NCBI RefSeq assembly: GCF_012933445.1
Contig: NZ_JABBNC010000034.1
Coordinates: 1-64,000, forward strand
DNA length: 64,000 nucleotides
Source of the DNA: Actinoplanes sp. TBRC 11911
Lineage (GTDB): Bacteria > Actinomycetota > Actinomycetes > Mycobacteriales > Micromonosporaceae
Direction of reading: 5' to 3'
Below the pieces are notes generated by a model. The model was not told the origin of the DNA, did not search any database, and saw only the letters and a program-made list of their open reading frames with translations. This document shows, piece after piece, positions 262 to 46,440 of this stretch (position 1 is its first letter; each line of letters opens with the position of its first letter). The translations under genes were made by a program, and so were the position numbers.

Positions 262-520
262 CAGCTGAACAATCTCATGATGTGAGACGTGCGTCCGTTG
301 TGCGGGACTGACGACCGCATCGTGGTCGCAGGGTCCGCGATGTGAGACCGGAGTCCATTGTAGAGTTTCTTTCGTCCTGTCTCGGGGCTTTTGTCCTCGC
401 GCTTTCCTCGACATTTCGTAGACCTTGGAGAGTTATGGCTCGTATGTGGGTGTCGTATGTGGGCGTAACTCTCCAAGGTCGCGAGAAAGTCCAGGATGTG
501 GTCGGGATTGCCACATAGTG
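262..520 (+). repeat. Structured interspersed element, copy A
   Basis: Central perfect 15-bp stem GACCTTGGAGAGTTA (421-435) with its reverse complement (466-480). The 30-nt loop holds a duplicated CGTATGTGGG. Upstream lie two 23-bp modules GATGTGRGA-N6-GTCCRYTGT (279-301 and 339-361), the second followed by TAGAGTTTCTTT and then a small hairpin with a CTTTTGT loop. Downstream a short stem ATGTGG/CCACAT spans 496-514. GATGTG at 279-284 can pair with CGCATC at 316-321. Copies B, C and D elsewhere in the window carry compensatory changes in these stems. Function unknown: structured RNA or folded DNA are both possible. The strand given is only the orientation shared by all copies. Confidence 0.8.
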
Positions 521-621
521 GGATCGGTGACGAGGTATCAGGCCGTTGCGCTGTCGAGGGCGCGATCACGGCGGTGTCGAAGGGCGCGGTCATGGCGGTG
601 ATGAGGCGTGCGGCGATCGCG

Positions 622-765
622 GTGTCGACGGGCGCGGTCATTGCGATGACGGCGGGGGCGGCCACTGTGGTGTCGACGGGCGCGGTCATTGCGATGACGG
701 CGGGGGCGGCCACTGTGGTGACGGTGGGTGCGGTCATTGCGGTGACGGCGGGTGCGGCCACCGCC
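622..765. repeat. 48-bp tandem repeats, three units
   Basis: Units at 622-669, 670-717 and 718-765, the first two nearly identical (GTGTCGACGGGCGCGGTCAT...). Because 48 is a multiple of 3, open frames run through on both strands and encode repetitive Ala/Val/Thr peptides. None resembles a known protein, so I treat the array as non-coding. It lies between element copy A and the 3' end of the lactonase gene. Confidence 0.75.
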
Positions 766-905
766 GACGTGTGTGCCTCGTCGGTCATCTCGGCAGCCGA
801 TCTCGGTTGCGGGTCGTTGCGAGGCTCGACCCGCACGGCCTTCGCATCCGCCGCGGCCGGCACGGGAACAACCACGACGGATCCGGCCCCGACCCGCAAG
901 GTTCT

Positions 906-1829
906 CTAGCGGGCGGCCCAGATCGGGCGGGTGCCGTTGACGCTCAGCCGGATCGCGTACAGGGTGGTGGTCGCGGCCAGGAACAGGACGTTGCGTTTCG
1001 GGCCGCCGAAGACCAGGTTCGCGACGACCTCGGGGACCAGGATGCGGCCCAGCCGGGTGCCGTCGGGGTGGTAGCAGTGCACGCCGTCGCCCGCGGCGGC
1101 CCAGATGAAGCCGCGGTCGTCGACGCGCAGGCCGTCGAACGAACCCTCGTCGCACTCGGCCACGAGCGAGCCGCCCGTCAGGCTCTGGTCGGCGGCGACG
1201 TCGAAGGCCCGGATGCTGCGCCGGGCGGTGTCCGCCAGATACAGGCGGCGCTCGTCGGGGGAGAAGGCCAGGCCGTTCGGGCGGTCCGCGTCGCGCACCA
1301 CGGCGACGGGCGTCGAAGCGCCCGGGTCCAGCCGGTACACGTGGCTGGCGCCGATCTCGCTCGGCGCCCGGTGCCCCTCGTAGTCGCTGTTGATCCCGTA
1401 CGGCGGGTCGGTGAACCAGATCGAGCCGGTGGAGTGCACCACCACGTCGTTCGGGCTGTTGAAGGGCTGACCGTCCCAGTTGTCGGTCAGCACGGTGATG
1501 CTGCCGTCGTGCTCGGTACGGGTGATCCGGCGCGGTCCCTGCTCGCAGCTGACCAGGCGCGCCTGTGCGTCCAGGGTGTGCCCGTTGGCGTACGCGGAAG
1601 GCTCCCGGAAGACGCCGACGGCGCCGGTGGTCTCGTCCCAGCGCAGGATGCGGTCGTTCGGGATGTCGCTGACGGTCAGGAAGCGGCCGGCCGGATGGTA
1701 GACGGGACCCTCCAGCCAGCGCGCCCCGCTGAACAGGCGTTCCACGCGGGCGTCGCCGAAACACGCGAAGCGCGGGTCCAGCTTGACGATCCGCGCTTCG
1801 ATGGTGTCGGTCGCGAGCCGTGCATTCAC
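906..1829 (-). CDS. SMP-30/gluconolactonase-family protein
   Basis: 307-residue six-bladed beta-propeller of the SMP-30/gluconolactonase/LRE family. These are metal-dependent lactonases that open sugar lactones. Family hallmarks are visible: WLEGPVYHP with the metal-binding Glu near residue 40, FNSPNDVVV (Asn-Asp ligand region), WFTDPPYG, RPNGLAFSPDE and the late SFDGLRVDDRG. No signal peptide is seen, so it is probably cytoplasmic. The GTG start gives MNARLATD. It is a monocistron convergent with the repeat island on its left. The natural substrate cannot be read from sequence. Confidence 0.85.
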   Translation of the reverse strand: MNARLATDTIEARIVKLDPRFACFGDARVERLFSGARWLEGPVYHPAGRFLTVSDIPNDRILRWDETTGAVGVFREPSAYANGHTLDAQARLVSCEQGPRRITRTEHDGSITVLTDNWDGQPFNSPNDVVVHSTGSIWFTDPPYGINSDYEGHRAPSEIGASHVYRLDPGASTPVAVVRDADRPNGLAFSPDERRLYLADTARRSIRAFDVAADQSLTGGSLVAECDEGSFDGLRVDDRGFIWAAAGDGVHCYHPDGTRLGRILVPEVVANLVFGGPKRNVLFLAATTTLYAIRLSVNGTRPIWAAR

Positions 1830-1839
1830 GGCCGTGATC

Positions 1840-2073
1840 CTAGCGGCCCAGCTTCTCCCGCAGGGCGTCGCGGCGCTCGCGCAGCGTGTCGAGGACCGCT
1901 TCCTGCTCGTTGATCTCGGTCATCGCGGCCGCGTAGTCCTCCTGGTCGCCGGTGCCCTCGTCGCGGTTGCCGACGCGGCGGCGTGCCTCGTCGACGCTCG
2001 GCTCGAGGTCGGCGATCTCCTGCTCCAGCCGCTTCAGCTGGTTCTCGGGGCTGAAGTCGTCGTCATCGCTCAT
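1840..2073 (-). CDS. Small charged coiled-coil protein
   Basis: 77-residue hypothetical protein beginning MSDDDDFSPENQLKRL. It is almost entirely helical, with heptad-like spacing of Leu/Ile and Glu/Arg (LKRLEQEIADLEPSV, INEQEAVLDTLRERRDALREKL), suggesting a two-helix coiled coil. The frame extends upstream, but the ATG at 2073 has the best coding character. It lies 10 bp upstream of the lactonase gene on the same strand and may be cotranscribed. No function is recognised. Confidence 0.6.
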   Translation of the reverse strand: MSDDDDFSPENQLKRLEQEIADLEPSVDEARRRVGNRDEGTGDQEDYAAAMTEINEQEAVLDTLRERRDALREKLGR

Positions 2074-2249
2074 CGGATCATCTTGGCAGGCGGCCGGGAA
2101 AGCCGCACGCGCCAGGGTCCCCGAACGATATGGTCCGCTTGACATCACGTCGTGAATGACGCCAAGTAGGCGTATGCCCCGCAGCGTGGCGAGGCCTCCC
2201 CTCGCCACCTCGGTCAACCGCGCGCAACGGCAGGAGAGGGGAAGCGGGC

Positions 2250-2696
2250 ATGCGAATCAGCGACATTCTCCGGGTCAAGGGCGACGAGGTCGTGACGGTG
2301 GCCCCGGATGCCGACGTGAGTGCTCTGCTGGCCGTTCTGGCCGAGCACCGGATCGGTGCGGTGGTGGTGTCCGCCGACGGCCGCCGGGTCGACGGCATCG
2401 CCAGTGAGCGTGACGTGGTGCGGGCGATCGCCCTGCGTGGCGCCGCCGTGCTCACCGAACCGGTCACCGCGATCCACACCGCCCAGGTGCGGTCGGTCGC
2501 CCGCGACGCCCTGGTCGAGGACGTGGAGCGGCTGATGACCGAGCGGCGGTTCCGGCACGTGCCGGTCGTCGAGGACGGCGTCCTGCACGGCGTGGTCAGC
2601 ATCGGCGACGTGGTCAAGTTCCGGATCGACGAGCTGGAGTCCGAGCGCCGCAGCCTGGCCGGCTACATCACCGGCGAACGGGCGTACCCGGCCTGA
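2250..2696 (+). CDS. CBS-domain pair protein
   Basis: 148-residue protein made of two CBS motifs (about residues 1-62 and 70-130). CBS pairs bind adenosyl ligands (AMP, ATP, SAM) and usually act as sensor modules. Here there is no fused enzyme, as in the stand-alone hypoxia/stress CBS proteins of actinobacteria. Repeated signatures are visible: HRIGAVVVSADGRRVDGIASERDVVRA and RFRHVPVVEDGVLHGVVSIGDVVK. A strong ribosome site (CAGGAGAGGGG, 2231-2241) precedes the ATG. TTGACA at 2139-2144 could be a -35 box, but I see no convincing -10. Partner protein unknown. Confidence 0.85.
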   Translation: MRISDILRVKGDEVVTVAPDADVSALLAVLAEHRIGAVVVSADGRRVDGIASERDVVRAIALRGAAVLTEPVTAIHTAQVRSVARDALVEDVERLMTERRFRHVPVVEDGVLHGVVSIGDVVKFRIDELESERRSLAGYITGERAYPA

Positions 2697-2741
2697 CCCG
2701 ATTCACGAGTGTAAGTGCAATCACCCGTGACGGCCATTACA

Positions 2742-2834
2742 AGGTGACGCTGCGGACCACGACTCTCCGCTACTGTCGCCTGGCGCCATTACCTAGAGGA
2801 ATTAGGGGCTTTCCTCCGGCCCCTTGCGGTAATG
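2742..2834 (+). promoter_or_regulatory. Two-hairpin leader upstream of metNIQ
   Basis: Two successive inverted repeats lie in the 160-bp leader of metN. The first is AGGTGAC (2742-2748) with GTCGCCT (2775-2781, one G-U), enclosing GCGG/CCGC (2752-2755/2767-2770). The second is a perfect 7-bp pair CATTACC (2787-2793) and GGTAATG (2828-2834), enclosing GGGGC/GCCCC (2805-2809/2819-2823). The structure ends about 25 bp before the metN GTG. A methionine- or SAM-responsive element would be logical here, but I do not recognise the conserved core of the SAM-I, SAM-II or SAM-IV classes. Confidence 0.45.
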
Positions 2835-2860
2835 ACGCGTGACCTGACCTGGGTGATTCG

Positions 2861-3838
2861 GTGATAGAGATCAACGGCGTCCGCAAGACCTACCGGTCGC
2901 GGCGGCGCACGGTCGTGGCCGTCGACGACGTGAACCTTACCGTGGGCGAGGGCGAGATCTTCGGTGTCGTCGGTCGCAGCGGCGCCGGTAAGAGCACCCT
3001 GCTGCGATGTGCCAACCTCCTGGAGCGCCCGGACGCGGGCACCGTGACGGTCGACGGCGTCGAGCTCACCGCACTCGGCGGGCGCCGCCTGCGCGACGCC
3101 CGGCACCGGATCGGCATGGTGCACCAGCACTTCGCGCTGCTCTCCTCGCGGACCGTGGCCGGCAACGTCGCCTTTCCGATGGAGCTGACCGGGGTGCCCC
3201 GGCCCGAGCGCCGGGCCCGCATCGCCGAGCTGCTGGAGCTTGTCGGGCTGGGGGACCGGGCCGACGCGTACCCGGCGCAGCTCTCCGGCGGGCAGAAGCA
3301 GCGGGTGGGAATCGCGCGCGCCCTCGCCGTACGGCCCCGGGTGTTGCTGTCCGACGAGGCCACCTCGGCGCTCGACCCGGACACCACCGCCTCGATCCTG
3401 GAACTGCTGCGCGACCTGAACAAAGAACTGGGACTCACGATCCTGCTGATCACGCACGAGATGGGCGTGGTCAAGAGCATCTGTCACTCGGCCGCGGTGA
3501 TGCGCGAGGGCCGGTTCACCGAGTCCGGCGAGATCCCCGAGCTGCTCCGGCGGCCCGGGTCCGAGCTGGCCCGCGGCCTGTTCCCGCTGTCCGCGGCGGA
3601 TGCCGGGCCGGGCGAGACGGTGCTCGACGTGACGGTGAGCGGGGGCGGCGCGGACGAGCCGCTGCTGGCCGAGGTGTCCCGCCGGTTCGACCTCGACCTG
3701 CGCATCCTCGGCGGCGGCGTGGAGACCCTCGCGGCGACGCGCGCGGGCCGGCTGCGGATCGCGGTGCCCGGCGCCGAGATCACCGGGCCCCTCGACTACC
3801 TCCGCTCGCGTGGCGCGCTGGTCGAGGTGGCTTCGTGA
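2861..3838 (+). CDS. metN: Methionine ABC transporter ATP-binding protein MetN
   Basis: 325-residue ATPase of the methionine uptake transporter MetNIQ. Walker A GRSGAGKST is at 38-46, the signature LSGGQKQR near 141, Walker B VLLSDE near 160-165 with the D-loop SALD, and an H-loop His in ITHEMG. The last ~80 residues form a NIL domain, the regulatory C-terminal domain that in MetN binds methionine and inhibits transport from the inside. The start is GTG. The stop codon overlaps the GTG start of metI (GTGA), implying translational coupling. A structured leader precedes the gene. Confidence 0.95.
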   Translation: MIEINGVRKTYRSRRRTVVAVDDVNLTVGEGEIFGVVGRSGAGKSTLLRCANLLERPDAGTVTVDGVELTALGGRRLRDARHRIGMVHQHFALLSSRTVAGNVAFPMELTGVPRPERRARIAELLELVGLGDRADAYPAQLSGGQKQRVGIARALAVRPRVLLSDEATSALDPDTTASILELLRDLNKELGLTILLITHEMGVVKSICHSAAVMREGRFTESGEIPELLRRPGSELARGLFPLSAADAGPGETVLDVTVSGGGADEPLLAEVSRRFDLDLRILGGGVETLAATRAGRLRIAVPGAEITGPLDYLRSRGALVEVAS

Positions 3839-4491
3839 GCTGGCCGGACTTACGGGACCTGCTCTGGGAAGGGATCAAGGAGACGGCCTGGATGGTCGGC
3901 GTCTCCACGGTGCTCACCGCGATCGGTGGCCTGCTCATCGGCGTGCTGCTGGTGCTCACCGCCCGCGGCGGGCTGCTGCCGGCCCGGCCGGTGCACGCGG
4001 TGCTCGGCCTCGTCGTCAACGTGACCCGGTCGCTGCCGTTCGTCATCCTGCTGGTCGCGATCATCCCGTTCACCCGCGCCCTGGTCGGTACCACGATCGG
4101 CACCACCGCGGCGATCGTGCCGCTGACCATCGGCGCGATCCCGTTCTTCGCGCGGCTCGTCGAGACCTCGATCCGCGAGGTGACGCCGGACGTGGTCGCC
4201 GCGGCCGTCGCGATGGGCGCGTCGAGGCGGCAGATCGTCGCCAAGGTGCTGCTGCGCGAGGCCCGGCCCGGCCTGATCGCCGGGTTGACCATCACGGTGG
4301 TCGCGCTGCTGGGCTACTCGGCGCTGGCCGGTGTGGTCGGCGGCGGCGGGCTCGGTGACCTCGCCATCCGCTATGGATACCAGCGCTTCGAGACCGGGGT
4401 CATGGTCGCCACGGTCATCGTCCTGATCGTTTTTGTGCAGCTCGTCCAATCAGTGGGCGACCTGATCGTGCGTTTGCTGTCGCACGACTAA
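3835..4491 (+). CDS. metI: Methionine ABC transporter permease MetI
   Basis: 218-residue inner-membrane permease. About five hydrophobic segments are visible, with the cytoplasmic EAA loop (EVTPDVVAAAVAMGASRRQIVAKV, ending in a conserved Gly) that docks on MetN. The GTG start at 3835 overlaps the metN stop, and length and N-terminus (VSWPDLRDLLWEGIKETAWM) match MetI proteins. Together with MetN and the downstream lipoprotein it completes an importer for L- and probably D-methionine. Confidence 0.93.
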   Translation: MSWPDLRDLLWEGIKETAWMVGVSTVLTAIGGLLIGVLLVLTARGGLLPARPVHAVLGLVVNVTRSLPFVILLVAIIPFTRALVGTTIGTTAAIVPLTIGAIPFFARLVETSIREVTPDVVAAAVAMGASRRQIVAKVLLREARPGLIAGLTITVVALLGYSALAGVVGGGGLGDLAIRYGYQRFETGVMVATVIVLIVFVQLVQSVGDLIVRLLSHD

Positions 4492-4526
4492 TAAAGAACC
4501 CACAGCAGGAAGTAGAGAGATTCATC

Positions 4527-5339
4527 ATGAAATTTCGTGCGATAGCCGCGACTGCCGTGCTTCTCGTCGGCCTCGCGGCCTGTGGCAGCAACGAGAGCGA
4601 TTCAAAAAGCGCTGACGCACCCCTCAAGGTGGGAGTCAGCCCGGTCCCGCACGGCGAGATCCTCCAGTACGTCAAGGACAACCTCGCCGCCAAGGAGGGC
4701 CTCAAGCTCGACATCGTCGAGTTCAACGACTACATCCAGCCGAACGTGGCGCTGAGCGAGAAGCAGCTGGACGCGAACTACTTCCAGCACAAGCCGTACC
4801 TGGACGGCGAGATCAAGGACAAGGGCTACCAGTTCACCGCCGTCGAGCCGGTGCACATCGAGCCGCTCGGCGTCTACTCGCACAAGGTCAAGAGCCTGGC
4901 TGAGGTGCCGTCCGGCGGTGTCGTGGCGATCCCGAACGACCCGTCCGACGAGGGCCGCGCGCTCGGGCTGCTCGCCGCCAACGGACTGATCACGTTGACG
5001 CCGGACGCCGGGCTCGAGGCGACCGACAAGGACATCGCCTCGAACCCGAAGAACCTGCAGTTCAAGGAGCTGGAGGCGGCGCAACTGCCGCGCAGCCTGG
5101 ACGACACCTCGCTGTCGGTGATCAACGGCAACTACGCGATCCAGGACGGCCTCAAGCCGGCGACCGACGCGCTGGCGCTGGAGAAGGCCGAGCACAACCC
5201 GTACGCGAACCTGCTGGTCGTGCGCACCGGCGACGAGAGTGACCCGCGGGTGGTCAAGCTGGCGAAACTGCTGCACTCGCCGGAGGTCAAGAAGTTCATT
5301 CAGGACAAATACCAGGGTTCGGTGCTGCCCGCGTTCTGA
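4527..5339 (+). CDS. metQ: Methionine-binding lipoprotein MetQ (NlpA family)
   Basis: 270-residue substrate-binding lipoprotein. It has a signal peptide with lipobox LAAC (Cys19), then the NlpA-family fold: KVGVSPVPHGEILQYVK, NDYIQPNVAL, YFQHKPYL, AIPNDPSDEGRAL and VINGNYAIQDGL. It captures methionine outside the membrane and delivers it to MetNI. It lies 35 bp after metI, with a ribosome site AGGAAG before the ATG. No terminator was identified downstream. Confidence 0.95.
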   Translation: MKFRAIAATAVLLVGLAACGSNESDSKSADAPLKVGVSPVPHGEILQYVKDNLAAKEGLKLDIVEFNDYIQPNVALSEKQLDANYFQHKPYLDGEIKDKGYQFTAVEPVHIEPLGVYSHKVKSLAEVPSGGVVAIPNDPSDEGRALGLLAANGLITLTPDAGLEATDKDIASNPKNLQFKELEAAQLPRSLDDTSLSVINGNYAIQDGLKPATDALALEKAEHNPYANLLVVRTGDESDPRVVKLAKLLHSPEVKKFIQDKYQGSVLPAF

Positions 5340-5465
5340 TCCCCCGCTCGTACGGTCCGTCCCGTGATTCCACCGTAACGGTCAGCTATATGTCCATGTC
5401 TCAATGGATAGGCTGCCGGGATGGTGCCCGGATCCGGGCACCCGGGACGGACCGAAAGGCATGGG

Positions 5466-7037
5466 ATGAGAAAGTTCCTCGCGGCCACGGTCGCCTCAGC
5501 GGCCGGACTTGTCCTGGCGGCCGGCGTGATCCCTGGCGCGGCGCAAGCCCATGATCACGGCGGCGGTGGCGACGGCGGCTGGACCCCGCCGCCGATCACC
5601 TGGTCGTCGTGCTTGAACGGCGCCGCCGAGTGCGGCCTCATGACCGTGCCGCTCGACTACGCGAAGCCGAACGGCACCAAGATCAAAATCGCTGTCTCCC
5701 GCGTACGCCACACCTCGTCCGACTATCAGGGCATCATGCTCGTGAATCCGGGCGGCCCGGGCGCCTCCGGGCTCGGCCTGGCGCGGCTGGGCACGAGCGT
5801 GCCGGACGACGTCGGCGACAAGTACGACTGGATCGGCTTCGACCCGCGCGGGGTCGGTTCCAGCCAGCCGTCGCTGACCTGCGACGACGAGTACTTCGGG
5901 TACAACCGGCCGTACTACGTGCCGGTCACCCGCCAGCTCGAGAAGACCTGGCTGAACAAGGCCGAGAACTACGCCGAGGCCTGCGACCGGGCCGGCGGCG
6001 CGCTGCTCGACCACACGAAGACGACCGACTGGGTCGCCGACATGGAGAGCATCCGCAAGGTGCTCGGCGCCAAGCAGATCAACTACTACGGCTTCTCGTA
6101 CGGGACGTACCTCGGCCAGGTGTACGCCACGCTGCACCCGGACCGCGTGCGCCGGATGGTCTTCGACGGCGTGGTCAACCCGACCCGCGTCTGGTACGAC
6201 GCCAACCTCGATCAGGACGTCCAGTTCGACAAGAACATGGACACCTACTTCTCCTGGGTCGCCGACCACAACGCGGTCTACCACCTCGGCACGAGCGGCA
6301 AGGTGGTCAAGGCCAAGTACTACGCGATCCTGCAGAAGCTCCGGGTCAAGCCGATCCAGGGCAAGATCGGCCCGGACGAGTGGAACGACATCTTCGTCTC
6401 GGCCGGCTACTACGTGTACGGCTGGGCGGACATCGCCACGATGTTCTCCCGCTACGTCAACGCCGGTGACGAGGCGGGCGTGCTCGACTTCTACGCCCCG
6501 CCCGGCGACCCCGGCGCGGACAACACGTACGCGGTCTACCTCGCCGTCCAGTGCACCGACGTGCAGTGGCCGCTGAGCTGGTCGAAGTGGGAACGCGACA
6601 ACTGGCGGATCCACGCCAAGTACCCGTTCATCACCTGGAACAACGCCTGGTACAACGCGCCCTGCCTGGACTGGGGTGCCAAGGCCGGCAAGCCGGTACA
6701 GATCAACGGCAAGAAGGTCCCGCCGATCCTGCTGATCAGTGAGACCAACGACGCCGCCACCCCGTACGGTGGCAGCCTCGAGGTGCGCCAGCGCTTCCCG
6801 CGCTCGGTGCTCATCGAGGGCGTCGGCGGCACCACGCACGCCGGTTCGCTCAGCGGCGTCGCGTGCACCGACGACACCATCGCCAAGTACCTGGACACCG
6901 GCGTCCTGCCGCACCGGGTGCCGGGCAACCGGTCCGACAAGAAGTGCGCCCCGGTGCCGCCGCCTCCGGCCACCGCGGCCGCGACCATGCTGTCCACCGG
7001 TTCCAGCCGGGCCGGCATGCCGCTGCTGGGCCGTTAG
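5466..7037 (+). CDS. Secreted alpha/beta hydrolase, tripeptidyl-aminopeptidase-like (S33)
   Basis: 523-residue secreted serine hydrolase resembling Streptomyces tripeptidyl/proline aminopeptidases. A Sec signal peptide (MRKFLAATVA...) ends near AQA28. The mature start HDHGGGGDGG is His/Gly-rich. The catalytic triad is readable: Ser211 in GFSYG, Asp429 in TNDAATP and His458 in GTTHAG. NPGGPGASG forms the oxyanion region. The frame extends upstream, but the ATG at 5466 restores a proper signal peptide and has AAAGG upstream. It probably removes N-terminal peptides from extracellular proteins. No lipid or wall anchor is visible. Confidence 0.9.
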   Translation: MRKFLAATVASAAGLVLAAGVIPGAAQAHDHGGGGDGGWTPPPITWSSCLNGAAECGLMTVPLDYAKPNGTKIKIAVSRVRHTSSDYQGIMLVNPGGPGASGLGLARLGTSVPDDVGDKYDWIGFDPRGVGSSQPSLTCDDEYFGYNRPYYVPVTRQLEKTWLNKAENYAEACDRAGGALLDHTKTTDWVADMESIRKVLGAKQINYYGFSYGTYLGQVYATLHPDRVRRMVFDGVVNPTRVWYDANLDQDVQFDKNMDTYFSWVADHNAVYHLGTSGKVVKAKYYAILQKLRVKPIQGKIGPDEWNDIFVSAGYYVYGWADIATMFSRYVNAGDEAGVLDFYAPPGDPGADNTYAVYLAVQCTDVQWPLSWSKWERDNWRIHAKYPFITWNNAWYNAPCLDWGAKAGKPVQINGKKVPPILLISETNDAATPYGGSLEVRQRFPRSVLIEGVGGTTHAGSLSGVACTDDTIAKYLDTGVLPHRVPGNRSDKKCAPVPPPPATAAATMLSTGSSRAGMPLLGR

Positions 7038-7098
7038 CCACACCACCGCGCGTCCGGCGGTCCGCCACGGCGGATCGCCGGACGTTAGCGTGTGAGCC

Positions 7099-7821: not shown

Positions 7822-7839
7822 GACCAGCCCCCATACGGT
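7811..7839 (+). promoter_or_regulatory. Promoter for glycine riboswitch-sdaA
   Basis: TTGACG (7811-7816), 17-bp spacer, TACGGT (7834-7839): a housekeeping-type promoter overlapping the stop codon of the preceding MBL gene. Transcription would start near 7846, about 30 nt before the riboswitch. Inferred from pattern and position only. Confidence 0.5.
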
Positions 7840-7873
7840 CGAGGCACAACCGCATACCGCGCCGCACGAACCG

Positions 7874-8053
7874 CTGCGGGAGAGCCCCGACCACGGGCGC
7901 CGAAGGAGCAAGTCCCTCCCCGGAATCTCTCAGGCCCACGTACCGCTGCCGGTCAGGCGACTCTGGAAAGACGGGACACCGACGTCCCGCACCCACGGTG
8001 CAAGCCGCCCGGCCGGGCGGTGAAGCTCTCAGGTACCGATGACAGAGCGGGAG
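7874..8053 (+). ncRNA. Glycine riboswitch (tandem aptamers)
   Basis: The leader of sdaA carries the hallmark glycine-riboswitch blocks: GCGGGAGAGCC (7876 on), GCGCCGAAGGAGCAAG, GGAATCTCTCAGGC and CGACTCTGGAAAG for the first aptamer. A shorter second aptamer follows with CACGGTGCAAGCC, GAAGCTCTCAGGTACCGATGACAGAGCGGGAG. The RNA ends about 20 nt before the GTG start. Glycine binding would be expected to switch on a serine/glycine catabolic enzyme, since glycine can be turned into serine by GlyA. Confidence 0.9.
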
Positions 8054-16023: not shown

Positions 16024-16268
16024 AGGTCCATGATGTGGGATCTGCGTCCGCTGTGCGGGATCGGTGACCACATCGTGGCCGCGCTTCCGCCATGTGGGAT
16101 GAGTGTCCACTGTAGAGTTTCTTTCCTCCGCTCTTGCGGCTTTTGTTCGGCCGCTTTCCGCGCTGTTTCGTGGACCTTGGATACTTATGGCTCGCATGTG
16201 GGCGTAAGTATCCAAGGTCGCGAGAAAGTCCACCTTGTGGAAGGGATCGCCGCATAGTGGGATCGGTG
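16024..16268 (+). repeat. Structured interspersed element, copy B
   Basis: Same architecture as copy A. The 15-bp stem is GACCTTGGATACTTA (16173-16187) with TAAGTATCCAAGGTC (16205-16219) and a 17-nt loop ending TGTGGGCG. Relative to copy A two stem positions changed on both arms (G-C to T-A and G-C to C-G), keeping pairing. Modules lie at 16032-16054 and 16091-16113. GATGTGG (16032-16038) pairs perfectly with CCACATC (16068-16074). The distance from TGTAGAG to the stem is 62 bp, identical to copy A. Confidence 0.8.
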
Positions 16269-34975: not shown

Positions 34976-35125
34976 CGAGCGATCGGATTTTCGAGACCTT
35001 GGAGAGTTCGGGTTCGTATGTGGGCGTAACTCTCCAAGGTCTCGAAATCGGTCCGAAAATAGTGGCCACAAAAGCCGCGATGTGGATAAAACGACCGTCC
35101 TCTTTGGGCGGTCGTCCATGATGCG
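34976..35125 (+). repeat. Structured interspersed element, copy C
   Basis: The longest stem of the family: TCGAGACCTTGGAGAGTT (34991-35008) with its perfect complement (35028-35045), extendable outward with one bulged T. The loop is CGGGTTCGTATGTGGGCGT. The inner stem equals copy A, and the outer GAGACC/GGTCTC pairs differ from copies A and D on both arms. The 5' modules are not recognisable. Downstream GATGTGGATAAAACGACCG is followed by its own hairpin ACGACCG...CGGTCGT (35091-35115). Confidence 0.75.
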
Positions 35126-35419
35126 GGCGTTCTCGTCCGGATGGTGAGAAGTCCCCTCATCGCGACGCCCGCCTGCCAAGCCGCGCGCAGCGAATGCCGT
35201 ATCACCGCGGCGCGCGCAGCCAATGCCGTCTCACCCCGCCGCGCCCCCATGGGCCCAAAGCATGACTTATACGGTCTATCCGCCCACCACGCCACCCGCG
35301 TGAGATCGATCGCGTCCGCTTTACATGATCAACGGTGCGGGCCCGGGCGCGGACGGGGTGAATGTGATCCGGCCGCTAGTCATGGTCGGTGCCGCCGGGC
35401 TTGGCCTACGGTGTAGAGC
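35126..35419. other. Gene-free stretch before dedA
   Basis: No gene is seen. Two short near-repeats (GCGCAGCGAATGCCGTATCACC and GCGCAGCCAATGCCGTCTCACC, about 35183 and 35213) recall the TGCCGTCTCACCCGCC words of the neighbouring array. The promoter of the DedA gene is presumably in the last 100 bp. Confidence 0.5.
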
Positions 35420-39235: not shown

Positions 39236-39261
39236 GAGCTGATCTTCATGTCGCCGACACG

Positions 39262-40041
39262 TTAGGCGGTGCGGTGGTCCGCGCGCAAAGCAAGATCAGC
39301 AAGCCAGTCGCGGCTGGCCCCGGCGACCCGCGGCGCGACGCCCAGCTCGGTGAGCAGGTCCGCGGCCGCGGCCATCTCCTCGGTCCGCCGCACGGCGTGC
39401 GCGTGCGACCCGTCGACGAGGCGATCGAGGGTACCGGCGTCGCTGCGGGTCAGCTCGGCCCGGATATTGCCGGCGAGCCAGTCCTCCAGCCCCGCCGCGC
39501 GCGCCGCTTCGAGGGCCTCGATGACGGCGGCCGCGAGTCCTTTGTAGAACACGCTGCGCAGCAGCTTCCGGGTGGCCGCCTCACCCACGGACCCGTCCAA
39601 AACCTCGATCTCGGCCCCGTACGCCCTGAGGAGTGCGGCCGCGCGCCCCGCCGCCGGCCCGCTCATCGTCATCGGGGTCCGCAGCCCGCGCCCCGGCACC
39701 GGCGCCATCAGCGCCACGTCGACCACGTCGGCCCGCCCGCCCGCGGCGTCCCGCAACGCCGTCTTGAGCGCGGGGGAGGCGGTGTTGAGATCGGCCCAGA
39801 TGGTTCCCGCCCGCAGCGCGGAAAGCGACTGCCGGAGCGCGTCGAGCGCGTCGTGCGCGCTGTTGACGCTGAGCACGAGCCCCGCGTCCCGGCAGGCGTC
39901 GGCATCGCTCGCCGCCGCCCGCACCCCGTCCGGCGCACCCAGCCGCGGATCGAACCCGGCAACCACCGCCCCGGCCGCGGCGAGCTCACCCGCGATGCGC
40001 CCACCCGCCTCCCCGAGCCCGAGCACAGCGATAACCGTCAT
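39262..40041 (-). CDS. NAD(P)-dependent oxidoreductase, 6-phosphogluconate dehydrogenase-like (DUF1932)
   Basis: 259 residues. N-terminal Rossmann motif VLGLGEAGGRIA and the C-terminal helical DUF1932 domain (RKLLRSVFYKGLAAAVIEAL) containing the Lys/Asn region of beta-hydroxyacid dehydrogenases. Such enzymes oxidise 2- or 3-hydroxy acids. Its ATG overlaps the stop of the GntR gene (ATGA), so regulator and enzyme are coupled. Confidence 0.87.
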   Translation of the reverse strand: MTVIAVLGLGEAGGRIAGELAAAGAVVAGFDPRLGAPDGVRAAASDADACRDAGLVLSVNSAHDALDALRQSLSALRAGTIWADLNTASPALKTALRDAAGGRADVVDVALMAPVPGRGLRTPMTMSGPAAGRAAALLRAYGAEIEVLDGSVGEAATRKLLRSVFYKGLAAAVIEALEAARAAGLEDWLAGNIRAELTRSDAGTLDRLVDGSHAHAVRRTEEMAAAADLLTELGVAPRVAGASRDWLADLALRADHRTA

Positions 40042-40691
40042 GCCGGCCCGCCCAGCGACTCGATCGAGCGCAACGCGTCGATCACGCTCGCGATGTGTTC
40101 GCGCATGGCGTCCTCGGCCGCCTTCGGGTCGCGGCTGCGGATCGCCGCGACCACCCGCTCGTGCTGCGGCAGCGACACCTGCGGCCGGCCCGGCAGCAGC
40201 GACAGCGTGAACTGGTGGCGGACCAGCTGGCCGCGCAGCGTCTGCACGATCCGGTCGGCGGTCTGGTGGCCGGAGATCTCGCGGATCGTCGAGTGCAGCC
40301 GCTGGTTCAGATCGCTGTACTGCCGGTGCTCGCCGGCCTCGACCGCCTCCCGCATGCGAGCCGCGATCTCGGAGAGGTCGTCGGCCTGCGACGGCGTGAC
40401 CCGCTCGGCGGCCCGCGCGGCGATCAGCCCTTCCACCACCATGCGCACCTCGGTGATCTCGACCGCCTCGTCGAGCGACACCTTGCGCACGTGCGCGCCC
40501 CGATTGCGTTCCATCCGCACCAGGCCCTCGGCGGCCAGGTCCTGCAGGACCGCGCGCACCGTGAACCGGCTGGCCGAGAACTCCTCGATCAGCTGGGCCT
40601 CGACCAGCCGTTCGCCGGGCAGGTAGTCACCGCGAAGGATCGCCTCCCGCAGATCGTCGCGGACGTGCCCCCGGTCGCGCTCTGTCGCCAT
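40038..40691 (-). CDS. GntR-family regulator, FadR/FCD subtype
   Basis: 217 residues: winged HTH (DLREAILRGDYLPGERLVEAQLIEEFSASRFTVRAVLQDLAAEGLV) and an all-helical FCD ligand domain with metal-ligand histidines (NQRLHSTIREISGH, LPQHERV, MREHI). It probably responds to the acid metabolised by the coupled DUF1932 enzyme. It starts 10 bp after the phosphatase gene. Confidence 0.9.
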   Translation of the reverse strand: MATERDRGHVRDDLREAILRGDYLPGERLVEAQLIEEFSASRFTVRAVLQDLAAEGLVRMERNRGAHVRKVSLDEAVEITEVRMVVEGLIAARAAERVTPSQADDLSEIAARMREAVEAGEHRQYSDLNQRLHSTIREISGHQTADRIVQTLRGQLVRHQFTLSLLPGRPQVSLPQHERVVAAIRSRDPKAAEDAMREHIASVIDALRSIESLGGPA

Positions 40692-40700
40692 CCGCGAAGC

Positions 40701-41423
40701 TTAACGTGGACCGTGACCAAAATTGTCAACAATCATCCGGTCGCGGACCGCGCCGACGTCCGCCGGGGTCAAGCCCGCGTCGCGCAGGCAGGCCGCTACG
40801 TCCACCTCCGACAGCAACGCGTGCAGCGCCGCCGCGATCGTCGTGCCGCGCGCCGCCAGCCGTTCGGCGACCGGATCGTCGTCGCGCTCGAAATGGCGGC
40901 GCAGCCTTTCCCCGCTGAGCGCGTAGTCCTCGATGATGGCCGCCGGCGTCACCCCGGCCAGCGCGAGCAGCAGCAACGCGATCAGCCCGGTGCGGTCGCG
41001 GCCGATCCCGCAATGAATGACAACCGCGCCCGCCCCGGCCCGCGCCACCGCCCGCACCGCCGCGGCACAGCGATCCGCCTTGCGTTCCAGGAAAGGCCGG
41101 TAATAGAGCGGCGTCCCGTCGATGTCGTCGTCGGTGACCCGATACCAGAACGCCGTATCCGCGTTGTCGTCCACCGGCGCGTGCACCACGGTGATCCCGG
41201 CGGGCCGGGCGATATCCGGGGACCTTTCGTCGTCCTCGCGCAGATCGACAACCGTCCGTACGCCGTACGCGGAAAGGGAATTCCATCCCGCGGGCGTGAG
41301 CCGATCGAGACTGTCGGCCCGCACGACCGACCGCCACCGGGTCGCCCCGCCGCCCGTCAGCGGCAGCCCGCCGAGATCGCGCACGTTGCGGCAACCAGCC
41401 CATTCGAGATGCCGTTCAGCCAT
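40701..41423 (-). CDS. Tyrosine/dual-specificity protein phosphatase
   Basis: 240 residues of the Y_phosphatase3 family. The active-site loop is HCGIGRDRTG, i.e. CX5R with Cys138 and Arg144. The N-terminal NVRDLGGLPLTGG and VDLREDDE with a general-acid Asp region are typical of PtpB-like actinobacterial phosphatases. An in-frame start 18 bp upstream exists. First gene of the minus-strand run and divergent from the iminopeptidase gene. Confidence 0.9.
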   Translation of the reverse strand: MAERHLEWAGCRNVRDLGGLPLTGGGATRWRSVVRADSLDRLTPAGWNSLSAYGVRTVVDLREDDERSPDIARPAGITVVHAPVDDNADTAFWYRVTDDDIDGTPLYYRPFLERKADRCAAAVRAVARAGAGAVVIHCGIGRDRTGLIALLLLALAGVTPAAIIEDYALSGERLRRHFERDDDPVAERLAARGTTIAAALHALLSEVDVAACLRDAGLTPADVGAVRDRMIVDNFGHGPR

Positions 41424-41463
41424 CGACCCGCCTAGGCTCATCCGGGGGAGAGGGGGAAAGGCA

Positions 41464-42420
41464 ATGTTATCGATCAGCGACTATCTGGACTACTCCGGGC
41501 GCGACGACGCCCTCAGCGGCGGCGCCCGCAAAATCCCGATCACCACCCCCACCGGCACGTACGGCGTGTGGGTCAAGCGGATCGGCAACAACCCCCGGCT
41601 GCGGGTGCTGCTGCTGCACGGCGGCCCGGGCGCGACCCACGAGTACCTGGAGGCGTGCGACAGTTTCCTGCCCGCCGCCGGCATCGAGTATTACTACTAC
41701 GACCAGCTCGGTTCCGGGTTCAGCGACCAGCCGGACGAGCCGTCGCTGTGGGAGCTGGACCGGTTCGTCGACGAGGTGGAGCAGGTCCGGGTGGCGCTCG
41801 GGCTGGGCCGCGACGACTTCGTGCTCTACGGCCAGTCGTGGGGCGGGCTGCTCGCCCTCGAATACGCGTTGACCTACCAGCGGCACCTGCGCGGGCTGGT
41901 CATCTCGAACATGGTGTCCAGCGCCGCTGCGTACGGGAAATATGCCCTTGAGGTGTTGATGCCGCGCATGGATCAGGGTGCGCTCGCCGAGATCGTGGCG
42001 TTCGAGGAGAAGGGCGACACCGGCGATCCGCGTTACATGGAACTGCTGATGGAGCAGCATTACGTGCACCACATTCTGCGGATGCCCGCGGATCAATGGC
42101 CGGAGCCGGTGGTCCGCGGATTCGCGCACATCAATCCGGCGATCTACGTGCCGATGCAGGGCCCCAGCGAGCTCGGACTCGCGAAGGACGCGAAACTGGC
42201 CGGTTGGGAACGCACCGAGCGGCTCGGCGAGATCGACGTGCCCACGCTGGTGATCGGCGCGCGGCACGACTCGATGGACCCGGCGTACATGGAGATGATG
42301 GCCGGCCGCCTGCCGCAGGGCCGCTACCTGTTCTGCCCGGACGGCAGCCACCTCGCGATGTACGACGATCAGCGGGTCTACTTCACCGGGCTGATCGACT
42401 TCCTGGAAAGCCTGCCATGA
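41464..42420 (+). CDS. pip: Proline iminopeptidase (S33 family)
   Basis: 318 residues. LLHGGPGATHEYL (HGGPG oxyanion motif), the DQLGSGFSDQP segment of prolyl iminopeptidases, nucleophile elbow GQSWGG, Asp in GARHDSMDP and His in GSHLAMYD. Cytoplasmic. It removes N-terminal proline from small peptides. GGGGGAAAGG precedes the ATG. The stop overlaps the start of a 15-codon frame that looks like the beginning of a lost gene. Confidence 0.9.
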   Translation: MLSISDYLDYSGRDDALSGGARKIPITTPTGTYGVWVKRIGNNPRLRVLLLHGGPGATHEYLEACDSFLPAAGIEYYYYDQLGSGFSDQPDEPSLWELDRFVDEVEQVRVALGLGRDDFVLYGQSWGGLLALEYALTYQRHLRGLVISNMVSSAAAYGKYALEVLMPRMDQGALAEIVAFEEKGDTGDPRYMELLMEQHYVHHILRMPADQWPEPVVRGFAHINPAIYVPMQGPSELGLAKDAKLAGWERTERLGEIDVPTLVIGARHDSMDPAYMEMMAGRLPQGRYLFCPDGSHLAMYDDQRVYFTGLIDFLESLP

Positions 42421-42464
42421 CGCGATTCGACGTACGGGCGATCGGCGAGCTGCGCGACGAGTAG
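42417..42464 (+). pseudogene. Possible 5' remnant of a coupled gene
   Basis: ATGA overlap with the iminopeptidase stop starts a frame MTRFDVRAIGELRDE followed by TAG. The peptide looks like the first residues of a normal protein and the coupling is typical of an operon partner, but the rest is missing: a convergent small-protein gene ends at 42468. It could also be a chance frame. Confidence 0.25.
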
Positions 42465-42467
42465 GGC

Positions 42468-42686
42468 CTATCGGCGCGGCGATCCCCGCCAGGCCTGGGC
42501 CACGCACGCCAGCAGCAGGAGATCGAGCAACGCCATTACCATGGTGGCCACCCACGTCGGGGCGGGCCGCAGGGCGACCATGCCGAGGATCGCGCACAAC
42601 AGCAGGCACAGCGCCGCGGCCAGGATGTAGTCGTTGATCGGCGTCCGCTGGGACCGCCGCAGGTGTCGCGTCACGAGTCCGCGCAT
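42468..42686 (-). CDS. Small two-helix membrane protein
   Basis: 72 residues starting MRGLVTRHLRRSQRT, with two hydrophobic segments (DYILAAALCLLLCAILGMVAL and TWVATMVMALLDLLLLACVA) and basic ends. Hypothetical, no family recognised. A start nine codons upstream is possible. It lies head-to-head with the histidine kinase gene. Confidence 0.6.
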   Translation of the reverse strand: MRGLVTRHLRRSQRTPINDYILAAALCLLLCAILGMVALRPAPTWVATMVMALLDLLLLACVAQAWRGSPRR

Positions 42687-42757
42687 CCAGACCTCCGCCC
42701 CTCGGTCCGACAAGTCTTACCCAGCGTGGCCGGGCGCGACACCCTCAGCATTTGCGG

Positions 42758-44710
42758 GTGCCGTCCGAATGGACGAACGTGCCGGATCAGCTCTACCTGC
42801 TCGGCAACCTGGTGATCATGATCAGTTACGCCGGGATCATGGTGGCGATCATCGTGCCCGTCACCCGGGCCGGTCAGCTGCGTACCAACCATCTCGCGCT
42901 GACCACCGGCCTCATCTTCTTCAGCTGCGCCGTGGGCCACGGCCTGCACGCGATCCTGGCCTGGCGCACCCTCACCTCGGCGCACCCCGGCGGTCACGTC
43001 ACCGGCATCGGCTGGTCCTGGGTGCTGGCCTCGTGGGATCTGACCACCGCGGGCATCGGTGTCTACTACTGGTCGCTGCGCCGGCACTACGGCGTGCTGC
43101 TGGGCAAGGGGTCGATCTACGTGTCGCCGGGGGAGAAGCACCGGCTGGACGAGGCCGACGCCCGCGAACGCGCCGCCCGTGACACGCTCTCCGCGGTGGC
43201 CGAGCACACCGAGACGGCCATCATCGGTGTCACCCTCGACGGCGTCGTCACCGCGTGGAACGGCGGCGCCGAGCACCTGTTCGGCTACCGCGCCGACGAG
43301 GCGATCGGCCGGCCGGTGTCGATGTTCACCGACGACTCGGGTGCGGACGAGCAGCGCGCGATCCTGGAACGCATCCAGAGCGGCGAACGCGGCGTGTTCT
43401 ACGAGACGCAACGCGTGCACAAGGACGGCTCGCCGCTGGAGGTCGCGCTCAACGTCGCCGGCATCAAGGACAGCACCGGCCGGGTCACCGGCGTGTCGGT
43501 GGTGGCCCGCGACATCAGCGCCGCCAAGGAGGCCGCCGAACGGCAACGGGCGCTCGAGGAACGCACGCACCAGGCGCAGCGCATGGAAAGCCTCGGCAAG
43601 CTCGCCGGCGGTGTCGCGCACGACTTCAACAACATCCTCGCGATCATCGTCAACTACACGGAGTTCGCGGCGGAGGAGACCCGCGATCCCTCCGTACGCG
43701 ATGACCTCGCGCACGTGCGTACGGCCGCCGATCGCGCCATGAACCTGACCCGGCAGCTGCTCACCTTCACCCGCGGCGACACGATCCAGCCGCGCGAGAT
43801 CGACCTGAACGCATCGATCGCCGAGGTACGCGCGATGCTGGAGCGCACGATCGGCGAGGACATCACCCTGTTCGCGAACCCGGCCGCCCAGCCCGCCGTG
43901 GTGCTGGCCGACCCGGGCCAGATCCACCAGGTGCTGCTCAACCTCGCGATCAACGCGCGCGACGCGATGCCGGCCGGCGGCACCCTGGTCATCGAGGCCG
44001 ACCTGGTCGACCTGGCCGGCGCCGAGGTCAGCGTGGAACCGGCGGTCCCGCCCGGCCGCTACGCCCGGCTGCGGGTCAGCGACACCGGCGAGGGCATGGC
44101 GCCGGAGGTGGCCGAGCACATCTTCGAGCCGTTCTACACGACCAAGCCGCAGGGCAAGGGCACCGGTCTGGGGCTGGCCACCGTCTACGGCATCGTCACC
44201 GAGGCCGGCGGCGGCATCGACGTGTTCTCCGAACCGGGCGTCGGCACCACGTTCCGCATCGTGTTGCCGCTGGCCGGCGCGCTCCGCGAGGCGGCACCCG
44301 CCGTCGCTCCGCTTCCCTCGCCGCCGTCCGGGGAGGGCCGCACCGTCCTGGTCGTCGAGGACGAGACCGCGCTGGCCCGGGTGGTCACCCGCATCCTGAC
44401 CACCGGTGGCTGGCACGTGCTCGCCGCCGCGCACGGCCCGGAGGCCCTCGCCCTGCTCGACGGCAAGGACTGCGACCTTCTCCTCACCGACGTGATCATG
44501 CCGGAGATGTCCGGCCCGCGACTCGCCGAGCTGATCCACGAACGCCGGCCCGGCCTGCCCGTGGTCTACATGTCCGGCTACAGCAACGGCCTGCTCGGCA
44601 GCACCCGGGTGCTGGATCGGGACACCCCGTTCCTGGAAAAGCCGTTCACCGCCGACGACCTGTTACGCAAGGTGCACGAGGCGGTCACGGAGGCCACGTT
44701 AAGGTATTGA
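42758..44710 (+). CDS. Hybrid sensor histidine kinase (TM-PAS-HisKA-HATPase-REC)
   Basis: About 650 residues. Three N-terminal membrane helices, a PAS domain (about 142-250, AIIGVTLDGVVTAWNGGAEHLFGY), HisKA with phospho-acceptor His288 in GGVAHDFNNILA, an ATPase domain (N box NLAINARDAM, G boxes DTGEGMA and GKGTGLGLAT) and a C-terminal receiver with Asp578 in LLTDVIMPEMSG. The receiver lacks an output domain. The GTG at 42758 or a TTG two codons earlier may be the start. No partner regulator is adjacent, so the target is elsewhere. Confidence 0.92.
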   Translation: MPSEWTNVPDQLYLLGNLVIMISYAGIMVAIIVPVTRAGQLRTNHLALTTGLIFFSCAVGHGLHAILAWRTLTSAHPGGHVTGIGWSWVLASWDLTTAGIGVYYWSLRRHYGVLLGKGSIYVSPGEKHRLDEADARERAARDTLSAVAEHTETAIIGVTLDGVVTAWNGGAEHLFGYRADEAIGRPVSMFTDDSGADEQRAILERIQSGERGVFYETQRVHKDGSPLEVALNVAGIKDSTGRVTGVSVVARDISAAKEAAERQRALEERTHQAQRMESLGKLAGGVAHDFNNILAIIVNYTEFAAEETRDPSVRDDLAHVRTAADRAMNLTRQLLTFTRGDTIQPREIDLNASIAEVRAMLERTIGEDITLFANPAAQPAVVLADPGQIHQVLLNLAINARDAMPAGGTLVIEADLVDLAGAEVSVEPAVPPGRYARLRVSDTGEGMAPEVAEHIFEPFYTTKPQGKGTGLGLATVYGIVTEAGGGIDVFSEPGVGTTFRIVLPLAGALREAAPAVAPLPSPPSGEGRTVLVVEDETALARVVTRILTTGGWHVLAAAHGPEALALLDGKDCDLLLTDVIMPEMSGPRLAELIHERRPGLPVVYMSGYSNGLLGSTRVLDRDTPFLEKPFTADDLLRKVHEAVTEATLRY

Positions 44711-44712
44711 CC

Positions 44713-45909
44713 ATGGCGGATCAGGTGGTCGGCGTCGTGGGGGCCGGAATTGTCGGGCTGGCCATCGCGCGGGAGTTGACGAGGCGGATGCCCGGCGCGC
44801 GCGTCGTCGTCGTGGACAAGGAGGCACGGGTCGCCGCGCACCAGACCGGCCACAACTCCGGGGTCGTGCACGCGGGCATCTACTACCGGCCGGGCAGCCT
44901 CAAGGCCGAGCTGTGCACCCGCGGCCGGGCGCTGTTGCGGGAGTATTGTCAGGAGCGCGAGATCCCGTACGAGGAATGCGGCAAGCTCGTCGTCGCCGTC
45001 CGCCGTGACGAGCTGGGCCGGCTGGAGGCCCTGGCGAGCCGCGCCGGCGAGAACACGGTGCCCGGCCTGCGCCGCGTCGGCCCCGGCGAGATCAAGGACA
45101 TCGAGCCGTACGCCACCGGCCTGTCCGCATTGTGGTCACCGAAAACCGCGATCACCGACTATGTACGCGTCGCCGAGTCCTTCGCTCGCGATGTGACCGA
45201 GGCCGGGGGCGAGGTGCTGTTGCGTTTCCCGGTGGATCGGGTGACGCCGTCGGCGGGTGGGCGGCTGGACATCGGTTCCGGTTCGCAGTCCCTTTCGGTG
45301 GATCGCCTGGTGGTCTGCGCCGGCATCCAGAGCGACCTGGTCGCGGGCCTCGCGGGCGACGTCGCCACGCCGCGGATCATCCCGTTCCGCGGCGAGTACA
45401 TGTTAATAAATCCCGATAAGTCGGACATGGTGCGCGGGTTGATCTATCCGGTGCCCGACCCGCGCTACCCGTTCCTGGGGGTCCACTTCACCCGCCGCGT
45501 GGACGGCACCGTCGAGGTCGGACCCAACGCCGTGCTCGCCACCGCCCGCGAAGGTTACCGCCGGGGCAATGTGAACCTGCGCGAGCTGGCCGGCATCGCG
45601 TCGTACCCGGGAATGTGGCGGATGGCCGCGAGGCACTGGCGTACCGGCGTACGGGAGATGTATGGGTCGGTGTCCAAGCGCGCTTATATGCGGGCGGCGC
45701 GCCGTTATGTGCCGGAGATCGGCCCGGGGGATGTGGTGCGGGCCGGTTCGGGGGTGCGGGCGCAGGCGCTGGACCGGAACGGGGCGCTGGTGGACGACTT
45801 CCGTATCCATCAGTTGGGCGCGGTGACGGCCGTGCGGAATGCGCCGTCCCCGGCGGCGACGTCGAGCCTCGCTATTGCTGAGCATGTGGCGGACGCGTTG
45901 AACGCCTAG
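44713..45909 (+). CDS. lhgO: L-2-hydroxyglutarate oxidase
   Basis: 398-residue FAD oxidase of the DAO fold. GAGIVGLAIARELT for FAD binding, the LhgO signature HQTGHNSGVVHAGIYYRPGSLKAELC, and FRGEYMLI/FLGVHFTRR in the substrate domain. It oxidises L-2-hydroxyglutarate to 2-oxoglutarate, a metabolite-repair role. ATG two bases after the kinase stop codon, so probably cotranscribed with it. Confidence 0.93.
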   Translation: MADQVVGVVGAGIVGLAIARELTRRMPGARVVVVDKEARVAAHQTGHNSGVVHAGIYYRPGSLKAELCTRGRALLREYCQEREIPYEECGKLVVAVRRDELGRLEALASRAGENTVPGLRRVGPGEIKDIEPYATGLSALWSPKTAITDYVRVAESFARDVTEAGGEVLLRFPVDRVTPSAGGRLDIGSGSQSLSVDRLVVCAGIQSDLVAGLAGDVATPRIIPFRGEYMLINPDKSDMVRGLIYPVPDPRYPFLGVHFTRRVDGTVEVGPNAVLATAREGYRRGNVNLRELAGIASYPGMWRMAARHWRTGVREMYGSVSKRAYMRAARRYVPEIGPGDVVRAGSGVRAQALDRNGALVDDFRIHQLGAVTAVRNAPSPAATSSLAIAEHVADALNA

Positions 45910-46244
45910 ACGGGTAAGTCCTGAGCCGAGTCAGTGGCCGTGGCCGAGTCAGCACAACGGCAACCGGACGTGGCCCGCCGTCGCCTGCAGTCCGAGCTGA
46001 CTTCAGTGGCCGTAGGCGAGTCAGTGATCTGATCGCCGTCAGTCCGTCAGCCCCGCCATCGCCGTCCCGCATATCCGATATTTCCTGATATTTGTTGGAT
46101 CGGCTGGGCCGCTGGACGGGCCGGCTCGCCGCGCGGCCGCGCGGCGCTTCCATTCCGTGAGACGGGCGTCCGCCTGCTGAGAGGCTTTCGCACGCTTCGA
46201 CGGTGGGGGGCCGACGGCCCGCGCCCGCATCATGGACTCACTGC
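45910..46244. other. Gene-free stretch with GAGTCAGTGGCCG words
   Basis: No gene is seen. CGAGTCAGTGGCCGTGGCCGAGTCAG (45929 on) is partly repeated near 46003 (CAGTGGCCGTAGGCGAGTCAGTG). At 46074-46095 CATATCCGATATTTCCTGATATTTG recalls the GATATTTCC decamer of the array at 34.3-34.8 kb. The stretch leads into element copy D. Confidence 0.55.
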
Positions 46245-46440
46245 CCGCGATGTGGGAGTAACGTCCATTGTAGAGAGTGCTTTTGTCACGTAACGAGGCT
46301 TTCGCCCGGCGGGTTTTTCCGGCCGAATGTGAACCTTGGAGAGTTATGGTTCGGAAGTATGCGGGCGCAACTCTCCAAGGTTCACAAAAATCAACGATGT
46401 GACCGCAGTGTCCACATAGCCCACATAGCGCGTCGGGTGC
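46245..46440 (+). repeat. Structured interspersed element, copy D
   Basis: Perfect 17-bp stem GTGAACCTTGGAGAGTT (46329-46345) with AACTCTCCAAGGTTCAC (46369-46385); the loop ends TATGCGGGCG. Compared with copies A-C the outer pair G-C has become A-T on both arms. The 5' module GATGTGGGAGTAACGTCCATTGT is at 46249-46271, followed by a mini-hairpin GTG-CTTTTGT-CAC. On the 3' side GATGTG...GTCCACATAG (46396 on) allows the ATGTG/CACAT stem. The stem starts 63 bp after TGTAGAG, against 62 in copies A and B. Confidence 0.8.

Follow-up and report, generated by a model that had tools for sequence, protein, structure and literature searches.

A 47-bp repetitive extragenic palindrome of Actinoplanes sp. 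TBRC 11911 with related hairpins across the Micromonosporaceae

We analyzed a 64,000-nt stretch of DNA (the window) that forms the beginning of contig 28 (NZ_JABBNC010000034.1) in the draft genome of Actinoplanes sp. TBRC 11911, labelled G000 in the following (9.66 Mb, 97 contigs). Four intergenic islands of this window, A to D, carry copies of a 47-bp palindrome of the form GACCTTGGANANTT-19-AANTNTCCAAGGTC, termed here the core palindrome, which has 278 matches in G000 at ≤3 mismatches and related hairpins in many other Micromonosporaceae. With some reserve, we favour the reading that this is a palindrome type of the Micromonosporaceae which may have a gene-boundary role at gene 3′ ends, exerted through a putative factor.

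Results

Copy number and architecture of the core palindrome

The G000 sequence examined amounted to 1.63 Mb and comprised 800 kb chosen regardless of copies (contig C1, 1-680000; contig C2, 1-120000), the window with its four copies and the surroundings of known copies. Cores were scored by their arm mismatches, adding 1 for an unusual length, in a search tolerating up to 7 arm mismatches. The 93 candidates separated into 91 copies with scores of 0-4 and two chance matches at 8, which were dropped, with nothing in between; no decayed core was present among them. The core length was exactly 47 nt in 86 of the 91 copies, and the five copies with other loop lengths were omitted from the 47-mer position counts. 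The unselected 800 kb contained 28 copies, and the most abundant intergenic 14-mers of the copy-enriched sample derive from the core. A strict hairpin pattern yielded 250 copies in G000, none for the reversed control and a single match, in one genome, among 66 congeners. By a simple rule on the flanks, 43, 32 and 16 copies were assigned to classes I, II and III, respectively. The four cores of the window, all of which the initial annotation had recognized, are:

421-480, + strand: core palindrome of island A, class I, loop enlarged by a 13-bp duplication to give a 60-nt core
16173-16219, + strand: core palindrome of island B, class I, arms GGATACTT/AAGTATCC
34988-35048, + strand: core palindrome of island C, class III, stem lengthened by TTTTCGA/TCGAAAT, without upstream array; core proper 34995-35041
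46332-46382, + strand: core palindrome of island D, class II (AACC...GGTT), with a 4-bp loop insertion (51 nt)

The common orientation that had been described for these copies is true of the window but not of the genome, where 120 copies are forward and 114 reverse. The motif TGTAGAG at 359, 16111 and 46269 precedes the stem by 62 bp in A and B and by 63 bp in D, as had been reported, whereas island C lacks this upstream part and belongs to a different flank class. No Rfam family reached its gathering score at the islands, the best hit at island A being mir-77 with 23.4 bits against a required 83, and we found no description of such a palindrome family in the open-licence literature; the view of the islands as an interspersed family with a strong palindrome was upheld. 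The G000 contigs C6, C7 and C11 terminate inside a core hairpin and C4, C18, C22 and C58 start within ~450 bp of one, suggesting that the assembly may break at core repeats.

Constraint on sequence and on pairing within G000

Across all 86 copies of standard length, 24 of the 47 core positions are identical, and 28 of 47 are ≥97% conserved in an alignment of 61 copies, all of class I or II (30 of the 91 copies were omitted, having no recognisable fifth upstream small palindrome, U5, or too little flank). The invariant loop positions include GG, AT and TGGGC. The half-site CTTG...A.TT and its mirror show little or no variation in G000, and both are conserved among relatives.

The pairing of the stem presented a different picture. 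The 14-bp stem is fully standard in 49 of the 86 copies, and 1-3 pairs are mismatched in the other 37. At pair 10/38, 13 of the 19 variant copies are mispaired, and at pair 12/36 this holds for 23 of the 36 variant copies (combinations over all copies: GC 50, CC 15, GG 8, TG 7, CG 6). Double changes, counted without the outer pair, numbered 15 against 7.7 in shuffled data (reached by 1 of 1000 shuffles); the excess was weak when the count was restricted to 66 distinct cores, at 10 against 6.2 (30/1000), or to class I, at 13 against 7.8 (42/1000). The matched substitutions between islands A and B, from which among other changes the initial annotation had proposed selection on structure, are real for those two copies but unrepresentative of G000, in which the variable inner pairs mostly mispair. 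What is visibly constrained in G000 is chiefly the sequence of the loop and of the individual arms, and selection on structure is mostly unsupported within this genome, although an 18-bp stem does covary across relatives (see below).

The flanks have diverged far more than the core, with pairwise identities in class I of 63-70% for the flank parts and 88% for the core; the most similar pair of flanks, in class II, is 93% identical. Across copies, core identity is correlated with that of the flanks (r = 0.35 and 0.55; Mantel p = 0.006 and 0.002), indicating co-descent, and we therefore rejected an exchange of cores independent of their flanks. The combination of diverged flanks, a conserved core, the lack of decayed cores and the lack of coreless arrays (see below) argues for a core that is old and maintained in place. 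A fresh mobile burst would not be expected to produce this pattern, presuming that flank positions outside the motifs are near-neutral.

Related hairpins among the Micromonosporaceae

A covariance model built from 16 hairpins (R1) matched 25 of the 67 genomes of the genus, G000 included, at E ≤ 0.01. Both strands were searched and at most 88 candidates scored, so that the very uneven counts per genome are lower bounds: at least 88 in G000, 87 in G011, 84 in G064, 81 in G063, 65 in G040 and 53 in G028. The G000 pattern itself, at ≤3 mismatches, was found in seven congeners (G063 7, G019 5, G011 4, and one each in G028, G040, G045 and G064). A second model built from 55 hairpins (R2) matched 105 of 200 family genomes, G000 included, in 23 of 44 genera (E ≤ 0.001), whereby the interspersed family proposed from the four copies of the window was extended well beyond it. 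Among 296 genomes of the phylum, eight were positive with R2 at E ≤ 1e-4, comprising G000 and G069 of the family and six others, with a best value of 7.7e-8, and the full G000-type core occurred in one of 396 phylum-sample genomes, G000 itself.

The hairpins of the relatives are constant in length within a few bases and retain the half-site CTTG...A.TT. In an alignment of 55 hairpins, 51 of which came from genomes other than G000, the 18-bp stem shows covariation, with a score of 0.265 against 0.142 in shuffled data (0/500) and at most 0.104 in slid controls. This value is to be read with the facts that most hairpins were found with a model rewarding pairing, that tandem copies of one genome were counted repeatedly and that 15% of all cells are unpaired. 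The four inner stem pairs, which were absent from the first search model, show 23 two-sided changes, with 73 of 220 cells unpaired. Judged from these alignments, the palindrome is preserved over evolutionary time. In relatives, hairpins also form arrays, with 10 within ~1 kb, 7 at steps of 104-137 bp and 4 at steps of 141 bp. The hairpins at loci L168 (G044) and L166 (G033) have loop motifs like TATGTGGGCGTA in common with the G000 core and no small-palindrome array.

Placement relative to genes

For 87 G000 cores the neighbours on both sides were visible, and none of these cores overlaps a predicted gene. The gaps that carry them are convergent in 40 cases, tandem in 32 and divergent in 15, giving a clear enrichment for convergent pairs (40/87 versus 262/1287 for all adjacent pairs; odds ratio 3.7, p = 2e-8) and none for divergent ones (odds ratio 0.82, p = 0.58). 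Core-bearing gaps are also long, with medians of 984-1600 bp compared with 10.5-177 bp for gaps lacking a core.

The 40 best-match loci of relatives comprised 19 convergent and 12 tandem placements, 2 divergent ones and 7 unresolved cases. Of the 54 gene 3′ ends at these loci, 16 lay within 23 nt of the hairpin, compared with none of the 18 gene 5′ ends, and in four convergent pairs (L148, L171, L188, L191) the hairpin occupies almost the entire gap. A second set of 21 loci, 19 of which were kept after excluding L208 and L211 as short, gave 9 convergent, 6 tandem and 2 divergent placements, one overlap and one unresolved case; 9 of 26 gene 3′ ends lay within 26 nt, together with one 5′ end at 15 nt. 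One convergent locus is shared between the two sets (L207 = L188).

Syntenic neighbourhoods and mobility

We identified five syntenic gene neighbourhoods in stretches of G021, G038 and G010, and none of these stretches contained an arm at ≤1 mismatch. In the clearest case, two co-directional genes of G000 stand 448 bp apart with an island between them, and their G010 orthologues leave ~65 bp between the aligned ends. The islands were thus either gained in the G000 lineage or lost elsewhere. Within the single 6-kb region that was compared, the best match in a congener had ~78% identity.

These absences are what would be expected of a non-autonomous mobile repeat, moved by a putative enzyme and lacking any host function, for which the intergenic placement would reflect selective tolerance. 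We rank this account directly after the favoured one and consider it a serious, if not quite probable, alternative. The extremely uneven copy number (278 in G000 compared with 0-7 in each of 66 congeners for the same pattern), the avoidance of genes by the cores and, in a relative, arrays holding as many as 10 hairpins all accord with it. However, mobility of this kind fits poorly with strongly diverged flanks that come with neither decayed nor near-identical recent copies, and with a conservation that peaks in the middle of the element and not at its ends. No target duplication was identified for the islands, whose boundaries were unreadable in the syntenic places viewed. The Y1 transposase family PF01797 was not found in G000; it is present in 21 of the 67 genus genomes, namely 7 of 25 hairpin-positive ones (including the hairpin-rich G011 and G040) and 14 of 42 hairpin-negative ones. 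Lacking both the gene in G000 and a genus-wide association, we rejected mobilization by a repetitive extragenic palindrome (REP)-associated tyrosine transposase (RAYT). Further sources were considered and discarded: plasmids, where island A had no match, and viruses, where core patterns of both the G000 and the relative type had no match in viral contigs (records close to G000 may be missing from either data set), as well as integron attC sites, whose conserved boxes do not fit the core ends.

Composite islands

In G000 the core is usually embedded in arrays of small palindromes, five upstream (U1-U5) and two downstream (U6-U7) being alignable in the 61 copies of classes I and II. The medians of their centre-to-centre steps range from 18.5 to 20 bp, and the GTCC/GGAC positions are conserved. 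Within the window these parts are:

274-366, + strand: upstream array of island A, five small palindromes U1-U5 (ATGTGGGAC / GTCC type, ~19-20 bp apart)
481-527, + strand: downstream small palindromes U6-U7 of island A
16027-16118, + strand: upstream array U1-U5 of island B
16220-16266, + strand: downstream small palindromes of island B
35091-35127, + strand: downstream small palindromes of island C, GTCC/GGAC type, recognized by eye
46148-46275, + strand: upstream array of island D, class II, broken up by other sequence
46383-46430, + strand: downstream small palindromes of island D

A hidden Markov model (HMM) of the upstream array alone gave 75 matches, 70 of which adjoin a core; of the other five, two are truncated by contig ends and three are split from their core by an inserted miniature inverted-repeat transposable element (MITE), so that no array detected in this way is without a core. 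The same model had no match in the congener loci scanned. This includes locus L202 (G063, contig C30, 1588-2061), a 141-bp tandem array of four hairpins followed by small palindromes of the GTGGGAC type, which by eye resemble those of the G000 islands.

The small-palindrome pairs behave mostly like shuffled controls, apart from a few pairs in U1 and U3, and on the whole do not covary. The mini-hairpin with a CTTTTGT-type loop, pointed out in the initial annotation, is by consensus mainly a class I feature. Covariation with average product correction, computed for class I (36 copies) and class II (25 copies), gave no helix among the 28 top column pairs listed, and in the absence of convincing covariation the array was rejected as a structured RNA.

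Regular arrays around a dyad could instead point to a chromosome-organizing DNA site, bound by a nucleoid, condensation or partition protein, with the small palindromes as an extended binding array. A 47-bp dyad of near-fixed length, with arms that in G000 vary for the most part independently of each other, the conserved GTCC/GGAC positions and the regular spacing (18.5-20.5 bp per step in the majority of the 61 aligned copies) would suit such a site. We nevertheless consider it improbable, as the element is missing from many congeners, the array model finds nothing in the scanned congener loci and the orientation is balanced. Least likely is a multicopy expressed structured RNA of ~250 nt: although the fold of island A is better than that of shuffled sequences (z = -3.8, equalled by 1 in 200) and the stem covaries family-wide, the core hairpin dominates the centroid fold, the array pairs covary little and are in part often broken (C-A in 22/60 and 27/61 copies), the top covarying columns form no helix and Rfam offers no match above gathering score.

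Other repeats accumulate in the same gaps. A separate MITE of 329-647 bp with ends AACTGTTCAGCTGGTT is present in 20 paired copies in the 1.63 Mb (for example L082 on C16, 17601-17999, and L072 on C12, 17537-17941) and has inserted into the islands at their small palindromes. Of these 20 copies, 14 are flanked by a target duplication of ≥7 bp, most often 10 bp, and 6 are not. All 20 lie ≤630 bp from a core, and 48 of 52 matches to the MITE ends lie within 1 kb of one, three end matches being in predicted genes; the window itself has single ends near 259-275 and 57292-57307. Tandem repeats amount to 220 bp/kb in core-bearing gaps and 108 bp/kb in other gaps of ≥400 bp, and are present in 58 of 87 and 27 of 96 of them, respectively (mean gap lengths 1164 and 909 bp). 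Elsewhere in the window, a glycine riboswitch (RF00504, 61.9 bits) was located at 7867-7955 on the + strand.

Discussion

The element is REP-like, and in relatives it is often placed like a bidirectional terminator. With REPs and bacterial interspersed mosaic elements (BIME) of the GTAG and CGTC superfamilies, as outlined in PMC3733652 and PMC2817692, it shares the character of a short, high-copy, extragenic palindrome with lineage-specific expansion and composite islands. Like the REPs of PMC1525189, it is also a target of other mobile elements. The core is longer, at 47 bp compared with the 20-40 bp of REPs, and is conserved far above its flanks. An unpaired GTAG or CGTC tag at the stem foot is not a family feature: GTAG straddles the foot, with its last base paired, in 29 of the 43 copies of class I and in none of the 32 of class II or the 16 of class III, and neither tag was seen at the feet of 51 hairpins of relatives, where the visible sequence extended about two bases beyond the stem. 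The missing RAYT link bears on the GTAG REPs, since CGTC REPs have no dedicated transposase according to PMC3733652.

The relatives' hairpins, at the best-match loci examined, resemble bidirectional intrinsic terminators in lying often within ~25 nt of stop codons and between convergent genes. The core differs in having no U-tract on either side in G000, and in a conserved sequence and length that would be unnecessary for a hairpin terminating on its own. Likewise, MITEs are non-coding, interspersed and amplified in single lineages, but neither terminal repeats nor a target duplication were identified at the island ends, the true MITE being the separate element inside the islands.

In the boundary reading that we favour, the hairpin would be a fixed-length class of repetitive extragenic palindromes, family-wide and probably characteristic of the Micromonosporaceae, with two inverted half-sites of the form GAYCTTGNNNANTT placed 19 bp apart and spanning 47 bp overall. 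The conserved half-sites and their near-fixed spacing suggest sequence-specific recognition, most likely by a putative DNA- or RNA-binding factor that would read the dyad or the hairpin formed by either strand. Such recognition could stop transcription, or insulate it, between neighbouring and mainly convergent genes, making the element a two-way boundary. In this species it would have been amplified to ~280 copies, most of which, to judge by the sample, would reside inside composite islands with ordered small palindromes. The binding factor, the terminating or insulating function and the route of spread are features we infer.

Several observations weigh against a boundary role. As many as 42 of the 67 genus genomes have no R1 match, G041 and G047 among them being weakly matched by R2, so any function must be dispensable. 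In G000 the median distances from core to nearest gene are 520 and 419 bp, unlike in many relatives, and a U-tract is absent, with a T fraction of 0.14-0.16 in the 12 nt past the hairpin and TTTT within 12 nt in 0 and 2 of 91 copies on the two sides. The placement data themselves rest on a simple in-house codon-bias caller for gene prediction, the 40 loci of relatives are the best-scoring matches and no random sample, three of them were flagged as overlapping a predicted gene, and the intergenic and convergent bias could reflect mere insertion tolerance. We regard as rather unlikely a more far-reaching version of the boundary reading, namely a RAYT-independent superfamily of 47-bp dyads that would be individually maintained boundary elements with a dedicated putative factor, serving as insulator or terminator sites, of which one species holds ~280 copies that would mostly lie in composite boundary islands, together with ordered arrays of regularly spaced small palindromes.

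The Micromonosporaceae are known as producers of antibiotics. If the boundary reading is true, a large actinobacterial family would possess a conserved gene-end repeat that matches no Rfam family at the islands of the window. The element would further provide a clean test case for the persistence of repetitive palindromes without a RAYT transposase, and thereby for the distinction between selfish repeats and boundary elements, with a natural contrast available inside a single genus between the 25 genomes that have R1 matches and the 42 that do not (two of them weak under R2).

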